47,923 nucleotides of DNA from Elainella sp. Prado103 (GTDB lineage: Bacteria; Cyanobacteriota; Cyanobacteriia; Elainellales; Elainellaceae): contig JALOOM010000071.1 in NCBI GenBank assembly GCA_025454395.1, positions 1-47,923 on the forward strand, written 5' to 3'. A program made the position numbers and the translations under genes. The notes below the pieces were generated by a model. That model saw nothing but the letters and a program-made list of their open reading frames with translations. It did no database searches and was not told where the DNA came from. Below, in pieces: positions 10,015 through 32,065 of this stretch; positions within the stretch are counted from its first letter, which is position 1; each line of letters starts with the position of its first letter.

Positions 10015-10099
10015 AGGTCAATCAAATCAATAGGTCAATCAAATCAATAGGTCAATCAAATCAATAGGTCAATCAAATCAATAGGTCAATCAAATCAAT
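10015..10099. repeat. Five perfect 17-bp tandem copies ending on the tenA start codon
   Basis: AGGTCAATCAAATCAAT is repeated five times with no mismatch (85 bp). The last copy supplies the AT of the tenA ATG at 10098. The array therefore forms the whole proximal 5' leader of tenA, and copy-number change would move any upstream promoter relative to the start codon. The AGGT at the left of the last unit is the only SD-like sequence near the start. Confidence 0.95.
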
Positions 10100-10748: not shown

Positions 10749-10789
10749 TTTTCCGCAAAATCTAATTTTCCACAAAATCTAATTTTCAG
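10740..10789. repeat. 17-bp tandem array spanning the stop codons of tenA and the DUF2993 gene
   Basis: Three copies of AAAATCTAATTTTCCGC (last base or two variable). The first copy contains the tenA TAA stop and the third contains the stop of the convergent DUF2993 gene at 10779. The coding ends of two genes are thus part of one array. Confidence 0.9.
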
Positions 10790-11768
10790 TCGGCACGATG
10801 TTGATTTGGCCCATCACCTGCAACTGTTGAGGATCGATCGTCAGTTGGTGAACGTGAGTCTCTTCACCCAGGTCGATTAATCGATCGGGCAGGTCAACTG
10901 ATTGGGTTGCGGCGAGATCGAGTTGCTGATCTGGAATCTGAAGGGTAATGTGTGCCAATTGAAGCGCTGATCCGCCGATTAACTGTAATTGGCTATGTAA
11001 TCTGAGCGGCAGATGGGTTGGATGAAGCAGATGGGTGGCTAGTACTTGCTCAGCCTGCGACCCATATCCGGTTTCCAACACAACAGTGGCAGTGAGCGTA
11101 AATTGTTGATCCCCCAATTCTAAGCGAGGCTGCTCTAACCTGAACGCCTGACTCTGCATCGCTGCTAAGGTCTGCATCGCTGCTAAAGTTGGTGATTCGA
11201 TCGAAACCCCCACCAAGAGTTGTTTGAGTAGATCGATCCAGGCTTGGTGTAATAATGGCGACTCGATCGATCGATCCAGATCCGCCTGAGTGATCCGTAC
11301 TGTGCCTGACACGGGCACTTTCTGTAAAAGACGTAGCGGTTTGCCCCGTAAAATCTGCCGTAGATTAATTTGGATTTCCTGGGCGGTTAAATCCAGGTGG
11401 CTCAGGTGTAGTCCCTGATAAATCGCCTGTTCACCCCGTACCGCGACCCTCGGCACATTCCCCTGCAAAATTTGCCGATCGTCCCCTTCAATTTCAAAAT
11501 GTAGCTCTGCGATCGATTCCACCTGAGCCCTTAACCAAAACCGTACCGCCGGAGCAAGCAGCTTGCGGATGAGTTGGCTGGCGTGGCGATGCCGGGTTGA
11601 ACCAGGATCGGGGTTAATCTCTGGATCGGGGTTAATCTCTGGCAAAAGGGCATCTGGATCGGGAGCAATCTCTAGCGCAGAGGTAACTCCAGAATCCTCA
11701 GAATTAGCTTGAGGGTCAATGGTTCGATTGGGACGGGTCATATGTGACTGGTCATCATAACTGGTCAT
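10779..11768 (-). CDS. DUF2993 (LmeA-like) lipid-binding domain protein
   Basis: The 329-residue protein carries a DUF2993 domain from about residue 75, with RAQVESIAELHFEIEGDDRQ, PRVAVRGEQAIYQGLHLSHL and VSGTVRITQADLDRSIESPL. This family has a tubular lipid-binding fold; the actinobacterial member LmeA acts on phosphatidylinositol mannoside precursors, and cyanobacterial roles are not established. No clear signal peptide is present. Two in-frame 18-bp duplications are visible: EINPDP (11605-11640) and QTLAAM (11154-11189). The first ATG at 11768 lies inside a 13-bp tandem array; a second ATG at 11741 (MTRPNRT) is equally possible. It is divergent from the DUF4912 gene. Confidence 0.75.
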   Translation of the reverse strand: MTSYDDQSHMTRPNRTIDPQANSEDSGVTSALEIAPDPDALLPEINPDPEINPDPGSTRHRHASQLIRKLLAPAVRFWLRAQVESIAELHFEIEGDDRQILQGNVPRVAVRGEQAIYQGLHLSHLDLTAQEIQINLRQILRGKPLRLLQKVPVSGTVRITQADLDRSIESPLLHQAWIDLLKQLLVGVSIESPTLAAMQTLAAMQSQAFRLEQPRLELGDQQFTLTATVVLETGYGSQAEQVLATHLLHPTHLPLRLHSQLQLIGGSALQLAHITLQIPDQQLDLAATQSVDLPDRLIDLGEETHVHQLTIDPQQLQVMGQINIVPTEN

Positions 11769-12355: not shown

Positions 12356-14344
12356 ATGTCAGCAGAACGACCGCCCCTAGAAGAAATGACGCTTCGGCAG
12401 CTCCGCCGGGTTGCCAGTGAACTGAATATTTCACGCTACAGCCGTATGCGGAAAGACCAGCTTCTAGCGGCGATTCAGGAAGCTCAAAGACTTCGGTTTT
12501 CACCGAGTCCATCCCGTACTTTGGAGGCTCAAGCAGAAGTGGAAGCAGCAAAATTTGATGTTGGACAGACCGATCGCACAGGCGGCTCTTTGGTCGCCGT
12601 TGATGAAGGGTTAAGCGAACTGCCCAGTGGCTATGGTGAAAGCCAAATTGTTCTGATGCCGCGCGATCCTCAGTGGGCTTATGCCTATTGGGATATCCCC
12701 AATGAACGTAAAGAGGAAATGCGTCGGCAAGGTGGGATTCGACTGGCGCTACGGTTCTACGATGTGACAGCCCTCGATCTGACTCTCCAGCGCCCTCATA
12801 GTTTGCAGCAATATGAATGCGATGAGCTAGCCCGTGAGTGGTATCTGCCGGTACCTGTTAGCGATCGAGATTACGTGGTGGAAATTGGCTACATTGCGGG
12901 CGATGGCCGCTGGCTCCTACTGGCTCAGTCGGCTCCGGTGCGCGTGCCGCCCGTTTATCCTTCTGATTGGATTGATGATCAATTCATTACGATCGATTGG
13001 GACGAAAACCTCAAGGGGAAAGCGTTCTTGCAGCTTGTGCAACCAGGGTATCGAGAGGTGACCCCTGCCCATGATCATGTCCTGGAAATGGCCAAGGCTG
13101 CCGAAGCACAACGAGTCGCTGGATCGGTATTTGGATCGGTTCAACAAGTGCCTGAAGAAGCGGTAAGCTCCTATGTCTTTCCGCCTTCCGGAGTGGGGCA
13201 ATGGGCTGCTAAAACTGAGTCCGGTGTAGGAATGTATTCCGAATCTGGGGCAGGGATGTATTCCGAGTCGGGTGTGGGCATGGCGGCTCGCACGGAATCG
13301 GGTGTCGGCATGATGTCTGGAGTCGGCATGTACTCCGAGTCAGGAGTCGGCATGATGTCAGGAGTCGGCATGATGTCAGGAGCAGGAATGTATTCCGAGT
13401 CGGGTGTGGGCATGGCGGCTCGCACGGAATCAGGCATCGGCATGATGTCTGGAGTCGGCATGTACTCCGAGTCAGGAGTCGGCATGTATTCGGCTTCGGG
13501 TATGGGCATGTACTCGGAATCTGGAGTCGGTCTGTATTCGGCTTCCGGAATAGGCATGTACTCCGAGTCAGGCGTTGGCATGTACTCCGAGTCAGGCGTT
13601 GGGCTCTATTCGGCTTCTGGAGTCGGGATGATGTCAGGCGTTGGGCTCTATTCGGCTTCTGGAGTCGGGATGGCGGCTCGCACGGAATCAGGCATCGGCA
13701 TGATGTCAGGCGTTGGCATGTACTCCGAGTCAGGAGTCGGCATGTATTCGGCTTCTGGCATGGGCATGTACTCCGAGTCAGGCGTTGGGCTCTATTCGGC
13801 TTCTGGCATGGGCATGTACTCCGAGTCAGGCGTTGGGCTCTATTCGGTTTCTGGAGTCGCAATGATGTCAGGCGTTGGGCTCTATTCGGCTTCTGGAGTC
13901 GGGATGGCGGCTCGCACGGAATCAGGCATCGGCATGATGTCTGGAGTCGGCATGTACTCCGAGTCAGGAGTCGGCATGTACACCATGTCCGGCATGGGCA
14001 TGTATACAATGTCTGGCATGGGCATGTCTGGAGTGGGCTTCTCTGCTTCGATGCCCCCGATCCGTCCTCGTCAGTTTTGGCTGATTGCCGATGCCGAGCT
14101 GATCGTTTACGGTGCCACCGAGCCGGATGCCACAGTGACCATTGGCGGTCGTCCGATCAAACTGAATCCAGATGGCACTTTCCGCTTCCAGATGTCGTTC
14201 CAAGATGGTTTAATCGATTATCCAATCATGGCCGTGGCGGCTGATGGCGAACAAACGCGATCGATTCATATGAAGTTCACTCGCGAAACTCCGGAACGCA
14301 ATACCAATACCAGAGAGGAAGCTATTCCAGAATGGTTGCCTTAG
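12356..14344 (+). CDS. DUF4912 protein with Rho_N/SAP-like head and long Gly-Val-Gly-Met repeat
   Basis: The 662-residue protein has three parts. Residues ~8-45 (MTLRQLRRVASELNISRYSR, then RKDQLLAAIQEA) look like a Rho N-terminal/SAP-type nucleic-acid-binding motif. Residues ~86-230 are the DUF4912 core (SQIVLMPRDPQWAYAYWDIP, REWYLPVPVSDRDYVVEIGY), and 566-640 supply its end (RQFWLIADAELIVYGATEPD, GTFRFQMSFQDG). Between them, residues ~279-562 are an array of SG-V/I/M/A-G-M/L modules joined by YSES, YSAS, AARTES, M or YTM. The DNA of this block (13190-14041) is a complex minisatellite. No signal peptide or membrane helix is visible. GGAGG precedes the ATG by 10 bases. The function is unknown. 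Confidence 0.9.
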   Translation: MSAERPPLEEMTLRQLRRVASELNISRYSRMRKDQLLAAIQEAQRLRFSPSPSRTLEAQAEVEAAKFDVGQTDRTGGSLVAVDEGLSELPSGYGESQIVLMPRDPQWAYAYWDIPNERKEEMRRQGGIRLALRFYDVTALDLTLQRPHSLQQYECDELAREWYLPVPVSDRDYVVEIGYIAGDGRWLLLAQSAPVRVPPVYPSDWIDDQFITIDWDENLKGKAFLQLVQPGYREVTPAHDHVLEMAKAAEAQRVAGSVFGSVQQVPEEAVSSYVFPPSGVGQWAAKTESGVGMYSESGAGMYSESGVGMAARTESGVGMMSGVGMYSESGVGMMSGVGMMSGAGMYSESGVGMAARTESGIGMMSGVGMYSESGVGMYSASGMGMYSESGVGLYSASGIGMYSESGVGMYSESGVGLYSASGVGMMSGVGLYSASGVGMAARTESGIGMMSGVGMYSESGVGMYSASGMGMYSESGVGLYSASGMGMYSESGVGLYSVSGVAMMSGVGLYSASGVGMAARTESGIGMMSGVGMYSESGVGMYTMSGMGMYTMSGMGMSGVGFSASMPPIRPRQFWLIADAELIVYGATEPDATVTIGGRPIKLNPDGTFRFQMSFQDGLIDYPIMAVAADGEQTRSIHMKFTRETPERNTNTREEAIPEWLP

Positions 14345-14370: not shown

Positions 14371-14684
14371 ATTAGTTAGCTCATTAGTTAGCTCATTTCC
14401 GATCTGTAATCCCTCGTCAACCGGCGGGGGATTTTCATCGGCAGGCATAGTTCAGGAGCTGACAGGTGAAGCAGCCTGGAAGCTTGTGATCATTCAACTG
14501 GAGTGGTTTTATAGACTGGTTTTACGGACTGGTCTTACGGACTGGTTTTAAGTGTTAAATCATAGGCAGATTACTATTAACTAGGTACATCACTAGGTAC
14601 ATCACTAGGTACATTACTCAGTCAATACTAGGCGCAGTTTAATCAGGGGTTTAATCAGGGGTTTAATCAGGGGTTGAATTGGGG
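14371..14684. repeat. Four different tandem arrays in the 371-bp gap before the EVE gene
   Basis: ATTAGTTAGCTC twice (14371-14397, 12 bp); ACTGGTTTTACGG about four times with the first copy degenerate (14502-14551, 13 bp); ACTAGGTACATC three times (14580-14616, 12 bp); TTTAATCAGGGG three to four times (14638-14684, 12 bp). Apart from the terminator at 14408-14435, the gap is mainly repeats. No gene is seen. Confidence 0.85.
14408..14435 (+). terminator. Terminator of the DUF4912 gene
   Basis: AATCCCTCG pairs with CGGGGGATT (one G-T wobble) around an 8-base loop and is followed by TTC. It lies 64 bases after the stop. Confidence 0.7.
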
Positions 14685-32000: not shown

Positions 32001-32065
32001 CAAATGCAGTTTATGCAAATGCAGTTTATGCAAATGCAGTTTATGCAAATGCAGTTTATGCAAAT
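32001..32065. repeat. 15-bp tandem array, four perfect copies, upstream of the 67-residue gene
   Basis: CAAATGCAGTTTATG is repeated four times, with a partial fifth copy. It ends about 38 bp before the next ATG. The 483-bp gap 31621-32103 otherwise shows no gene. Confidence 0.95.

Follow-up and report, generated by a model that had tools for sequence, protein, structure and literature searches.

The open reading frame at 12356-14344 of the window (the whole stretch of 47,923 nucleotides of Elainella sp. Prado103 DNA analysed here) encodes a soluble member of the DUF4912 family in which a long array of SGxG motifs lies between two folded domains. We tentatively propose, at a little under an even chance, that this array is a disordered, methionine-rich, multivalent arm that would serve in self-association, perhaps together with a membrane paralogue. 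A multivalent arm is the best supported of the readings considered here because the identity of the motif is selected, the number of motifs has been free to grow, and the spacers between them are lineage-specific. The frame is open throughout its 662 residues and is built as follows.

12356-14344, + strand: complete frame of 662 amino acids, in the order Rho_N, DUF4912, linker, SGxG array, Ig-like C-terminal domain (ORF list and translation)
12377-12487, + strand: Rho_N (SAP-like) domain, residues 8-44 (Pfam PF07498, E 1.1e-12; pLDDT block means 89-93 for residues 11-40)
12632-12979, + strand: DUF4912 domain, residues 93-208, complete and unbroken (Pfam PF16258, E 8.2e-43, profile positions 1-118 of 118)
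12980-13186, + strand: linker in which residues 238-258 are predicted to be helical and the segments GSxFGS and SSYxFPSG are conserved (alignments, AlphaFold2)
13187-14038, + strand: SGxG(M/L) array, residues 278-561, with 36 SGxG motifs (motif count; pLDDT block means 21-42)
14069-14299, + strand: Ig-like (glucodextranase domain B-like) C-terminal domain, about residues 572-648 (AlphaFold2, fold match to 1ug9, weak Pfam match)

Both domain matches lie above their curated cut-offs, DUF4912 with 145.9 bits against 29.4 and Rho_N with 48.2 bits against 24.9. The first-pass annotation had described the array as inserted into the DUF4912 fold and interrupting it. This arrangement is ruled out by the full-length Pfam match, which covers residues 93-208 continuously. 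Some 70 residues separate the end of that match from the start of the array, and beyond the array lies a separate Ig-like domain. The PF16258 model, for which Pfam gives no function, leaves out both the array and this C-terminal domain. The latter gave a weak Pfam match to Glucodextran_B at residues 582-635 (E 0.2), and the same family was matched in a relative, L157, at E 9.7e-5, a match that still falls short of the family cut-off.

Other parts of the annotation agree with our results. A cytoplasmic protein with no export signal had been expected, and no stretch of the frame is strongly hydrophobic (19-residue mean hydropathy at most 1.26). The N-terminus had been called nucleic-acid-binding-like and corresponds to Rho_N, a domain whose presence suggests that the protein probably binds nucleic acid. 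The window protein shares an N-terminal Rho_N with other PF07498 proteins, but it was rejected as a transcription termination factor Rho, which has an RNA-binding core and an ATPase domain. A Pfam search to E 1 found neither of these after Rho_N and returned only DUF4912, Rho_N and the weak Glucodextran_B match.

The array had been given as a 285-residue repeat at 13190-14041; the repeat is real, and its extent is corrected by one codon to the 284 residues listed above. Its motifs take the form SG(V/I/M/A)G(M/L), joined by spacers that include YSES, AARTES and YTM. The composition is 25.7% Gly, 20.1% Ser, 15.5% Met and 7.7% Tyr (44 Met and 22 Tyr, with no Pro and no Asp), and the net charge is -12. 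Successive SG pairs are most often 8 residues apart (22 of 36 spacings), followed by 6 (8), 10 (4), 11 (1) and 5 (1). When the residues of the array were shuffled 2000 times, a mean of 3.65 and a maximum of 12 SGxG motifs were obtained, compared to the 36 observed. The array also contains larger duplicated units.

13280-13299, + strand: first copy of the AARTES module (read from the sequence)
13412-13431, + strand: second copy, which starts a 77-nt exact repeat shared with the fourth (sequence)
13670-13689, + strand: third copy, inside an 80-nt exact repeat starting at 13628 and 13862 (sequence)
13904-13923, + strand: fourth copy (sequence)
13505-13744, + strand: 240-nt block duplicated at +234 nt (13739-13978), 208 of 240 positions identical, with 22 of the 32 differences at codon position 3
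13357-13596, + strand: 240-nt block duplicated at +258 nt (13615-13854), 201 of 240 positions identical, with 34 of the 39 differences at codon position 3

The earlier observation that larger blocks holding AARTES recur about four times, as a higher-order duplication, is thus borne out by the four modules and the two 240-nt blocks. An assembly error in this region seems unlikely because the frame stays open across the array and the longest exact DNA repeat there, at 80 nt, can be spanned by ordinary reads. Among the 36 SGxG cores, pS was 0.64 and pN was 0.077, about an eighth of pS, and all four TCN codons for Ser and all four codons for Gly are in use. By these measures the coding DNA has drifted under a conserved peptide, and it is at the protein level that the motif is held. 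Since the copies differ mainly at silent sites, selection on the peptide is indicated rather than slippage alone.

A homologue of the window ORF was found in 60 of 60 genomes in a first search. In an even draw of the phylum, DUF4912 was present in 78 of 146 genomes and 59 of 77 genera; 16 of the 20 misses listed fall in one small-genome family (f41), and the 48 further misses are not itemised. Within the window's own class, 63 of 64 listed genomes carry the domain. The common form of the soluble protein has a short linker with 2-4 SGxG motifs between DUF4912 and the C-terminal domain, which in alignment reads like PSGVGMWAVPTxSGLTMSGVGMSGVGFSAS. Complete soluble orthologues number 71 and have 2 to 86 motifs between the folded domains, with a median of 4; 55 have fewer than 10, 16 have at least 10 and 6 have at least 36. 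In some relatives the gene is broken off by a contig end within or close to the array (e.g. L041, L049), and 5 of 81 ORFs are soluble forms that lack the C-terminal domain; copy numbers from draft genomes are therefore approximate. The longest soluble arrays occur in two Okeania (86 and 81 motifs), followed by a third Okeania and Spirulina subsalsa (56 each). The window array, which had been described as an extreme product, is therefore not the extreme but one of several long ones. A comparison of repeat length across orthologues, as the first-pass annotation had suggested, did not reveal a fixed-length repeat, and both length and order vary widely. In Okeania SIO3B5 the gene appears as two overlapping frames around the array (L046, 9971-13548), reflecting a frameshift or an assembly fault.

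We defined the expanded state as 10 or more SGxG motifs. A 72-row tree was built without the array, and support is poor at 34 of its 69 inner branches. On this tree at least 9 changes between the minimal and the expanded state are required, compared to a mean of 15.5 for shuffled labels. Array expansion, as read from this tree, is partly inherited and has been gained or lost repeatedly. In 60 distinct arrays of at least 6 motifs, drawn from both the soluble gene and its paralogue, the residue after SGxG is Met in 843 of 1344 cases and Leu in 222, and the median Met content is 16.6%. The spacers differ by lineage, and the 1422 SG spacings in these arrays include 5 (482), 7 (297), 8 (266), 6 (146) and 10 (71).

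The array is shared with a second, longer type of DUF4912 protein. The window genome encodes three further DUF4912 proteins, L141 (G000 C155), L155 (C19) and L156 (C116). In L141, a PBP_like_2 domain (residues 70-296) is followed by a hydrophobic segment near residue 361 and by two DUF4912 domains; this protein also has 14 SGxG motifs and shares the C-terminal domain of the window ORF. L155 and L156 each have PBP_like_2 and two DUF4912 domains and no SGxG; a hydrophobic segment is clear near residue 370 in L155, and the clearest one in L156 lies later, near residue 553. In all three proteins the PstS-like outer domain precedes the DUF4912 pair, in L141 and L155 with the hydrophobic segment in between, a receptor-like architecture. 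The outer domain is the one found in PstS-like phosphate-binding proteins (TIGR02136, PBP_like_2). The long DUF4912 paralogues are, however, fusions rather than plain PstS, and their scores fall far short of the NCBIfam cut-off (73 and 92 bits against 206.6 for TIGR02136, with L141 and L156 scanned). In Nostoc linckia and Fischerella (L248, L249), DUF4912 of the long paralogue is joined directly to the C-terminal domain, with no SGxG array.

A search of 30 genomes with the array only (E up to 0.001, places matched by hand) placed 35 of 39 rows in one or other of the two DUF4912 genes, whole or fragmentary, and 4 weak rows elsewhere (E 2.9e-5 to 9.9e-4); 14 of the 30 genomes gave no row at all, and other repetitive proteins may escape such a search.

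The sizes of the soluble and paralogue arrays go together. In the 26 genomes, of 40, with both genes complete, rho was 0.85, and correction for descent gave r 0.76, or 0.66 with equal branches. On the tree of these genomes the expanded state changed only twice; within the expanded clade rho was 0.40 (p 0.19, n 12), and an independent-pairs test found 2 pairs and had no power. Five more pairs were then added: two concordant (L035/L245 with 34 and 11 motifs, L053/L246 with 18 and 27), one discordant (L095/L247 with 13 and 3) and two in which both arrays are minimal (3 and 0 motifs). L247 is a 422-residue frame without Rho_N, putatively of the membrane type. For the resulting 31 genomes, rho was 0.80 and independent contrasts gave r 0.71 (p 1e-5; 0.72 with equal branches), with 18 contrasts of the same sign, 6 of opposite sign and 6 of zero. 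Both arrays are expanded in 15 genomes and the state is discordant in two (G027, L095). The expanded state changed 4 times in the soluble gene and 5 times in the paralogue on this tree, so that the co-evolution of the two arrays, resting on few events, is suggestive only.

Gene conversion was not supported as the cause of the similar array sizes, as the partner from the same genome was the best or tied match in 2 of 26 cases for each domain. Identity within and between genomes was 0.811 and 0.797 for the C-terminal domain and 0.720 and 0.713 for DUF4912. The paralogue is not a required partner, since 21 of 30 genomes show a single gene with the C-terminal domain, and soluble arrays in such genomes are sometimes very long. 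Four Okeania and two Spirulina belong to this group, and the five of these six that have a complete gene carry 44 to 86 motifs.

We considered whether the array could be an entropic spacer, a flexible tether between two beta-sandwich domains whose length drifts through tolerated slippage or unequal exchange. The range of 2 to 86 in motif number, the minimal form of most soluble orthologues, the Nostocales paralogues that have no array between the same two domains (L248, L249) and the low pLDDT of the array are all in keeping with such a tether. Nevertheless, a spacer would place little demand on which residues fill it, yet the residues of the unit have been kept, both in the ratio of pN to pS in the window cores and in the predominance of Met after SGxG over the 60 arrays. 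Furthermore, several lineages, and the paralogue too, expanded this one motif at an identical site. We therefore regard a pure spacer as unlikely, while treating it as a serious contender.

Structure prediction bears on a second alternative. In the AlphaFold2 model of the window ORF, which was built from a shallow alignment of 43 rows, the means of 10-residue blocks were 89-93 in Rho_N, 83-91 in the C-terminal domain (residues 581-640), 62-84 over most of DUF4912 and 21-42 in the array. Two models had mean pLDDT values of 51.4 and 49.3, which is weak overall; that of a minimal orthologue from Nostoc linckia was about as weak, with its domains less sure than those of the window model. For the C-terminal domain, the matches are to glucodextranase domain B (1ug9: Z 6.8 over 65 residues, with an rmsd of 2.2 and 26% identity, a score usual for common beta-sandwich matches) and to further Ig-like domains, and for DUF4912 they are to FN3-like sandwiches with a best Z of 5.9; values of 5.9-6.8 may reflect a shared common arrangement only. 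Foldseek returned no PDB match with E up to 0.001, and phmmer matched 5vj4 (E 0.0038) within the low-complexity array. The flexible glycine-rich arm proposed in the first-pass annotation is consistent with the block means over the array, low pLDDT being no proof of disorder, and the arm would probably be disordered in solution.

Alternatively, the array could take up an ordered beta-structure with a period of 8 residues, its strands stacked as in silk or wound into a beta-roll, and so build a fibre or rod. The unit SGVGMYSE alternates small and larger side chains, 8 is the prevailing spacing in the window array, and AlphaFold2 drew weak strands every 8 residues at 455-498. The block pLDDT of these strands is 34-42, a very low confidence, and the spacings over the 60 arrays are a mixture of 5, 7, 8, 6 and 10 that a regular solenoid would hardly tolerate. 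Together these observations make an ordered fibre or rod improbable.

The window is rich in short, mostly near-perfect DNA tandem repeats (e.g. 10015-10099, 14500-14679, 32001-32065). That the array is functionless repeat instability, a product of the process behind these short repeats as had been supposed, is highly improbable: Tandem Repeats Finder does report 36 more rows in the window outside the array, but 16 of those 36 have periods not divisible by 3 whereas all 13 rows within the array have periods that are, the array copies mostly differ at silent sites, and the paralogues L155 and L156 of the same genome have no SGxG.

If the array is instead a multivalent arm, the common short linker with 2-4 SGxG motifs would have grown into a long arm in several lineages by in-frame duplication under selection for the motif. 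The SG(V/I/M/A)G(M/L) motifs would act as stickers, separated by spacers peculiar to each lineage. Many weak contacts through Met, Val and Tyr would then gather this Rho_N protein, which probably binds nucleic acid, into a scaffold or condensate; self-association of the arm is plausible. A likely partner is the paralogue, in which a PstS-like outer domain, a membrane segment and DUF4912 are joined to the array and C-terminal domain known from the soluble protein; it could anchor such an assembly at the membrane. The repeated growth of one selected sticker motif, common to a soluble and a receptor-like protein, offers a handle on the role of the DUF4912 family. In addition, the natural series of 2 to 86 motifs makes the relation between sticker number and self-assembly measurable.

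Known repeat proteins provide points of comparison. Elastin-like polypeptides are (VPGXG)n, with a proline in each pentad, and RTX nonapeptide repeats are Gly-Asp-rich. The MSGVG runs of several orthologues resemble the Gly-hydrophobic-Gly pentad of the former. The window array was rejected as elastin-like since it has no Pro, and as RTX repeats since it has no Asp. A different parallel is offered by yeast Pbp1, in which, according to a review (PMC8394241), a Met-rich low-complexity region can drive phase separation that is dissolved by Met oxidation. Like Pbp1/ataxin-2, the window protein joins a Met-rich low-complexity arm (44 Met in 284 residues) to a likely nucleic-acid-binding domain, and at 15.5% its Met abundance is unusual in the same way. 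In contrast to Pbp1, the window arm consists of a repeated motif and also holds 22 Tyr; no homology is claimed.

By analogy, the window protein might be an independently reached bacterial counterpart of the ataxin-2/Pbp1 redox condensate, in which the Rho_N protein and the PstS-like receptor, each with its Met-rich arm, would condense and oxidants from photosynthesis would dissolve them by oxidizing Met. We consider this a very improbable extension. Were it true, nutrient and redox state would be coupled to RNA or chromosome handling in oxygen-producing cells.

No functional study of DUF4912 was found in the literature searched; the family is mentioned there in one paper, on cotton callus. A proteomics table (PMC8147232) names Nostoc all2705 a 'Rho termination factor' and lists it, at 2.17, with the proteins that change under BMAA, and this name for all2705 was not found elsewhere in the literature searched. 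In another study (PMC6391411), zipN is Nostoc all2707, two ORF numbers from all2705. We infer that all2705 is the Nostoc orthologue of the window ORF.

Around the soluble DUF4912 gene, no fixed operon was found in 40 of 80 loci (6 kb on both sides). A divergent upstream gene for an LmeA-like protein (PF11209) occurs in 11 of the 40, and in BLAST the window copy at 10779-11768 has a match to each of them. Upstream on the same strand, 9 loci (L044, L068, L073, L077, L085, L089, L092, L094, L103) have a gene from the ARC6/ZipN (Ftn2) cluster, a cluster named from the Pfam match of one member. An ArsA ATPase and a CesT-like protein are each nearby in 8, and members of a kinase-like cluster are scattered on both sides in 13.

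Some deeper relatives also carry short motifs after DUF4912. Among loci from other classes of the phylum, a DUF4912 frame was found in 8 of 9. Five of these (L157, L158, L159, L161, L171) have the C-terminal domain and no GASE-type array, and L160, L162 and L173 end in a different, short-motif array of the GASE type, e.g. FIGASERFIGASE. L151 (G048), which we take to be Gloeobacter, has LFSGALFSGALFSGAS where the array sits in others. Short hydrophobic-Gly-Ser motifs after DUF4912 may, from these sequences, be old, the kinship of the motif types being left aside. The GASE-type motif of L162, L173 and L160 is a second motif that has been multiplied within the DUF4912 family.
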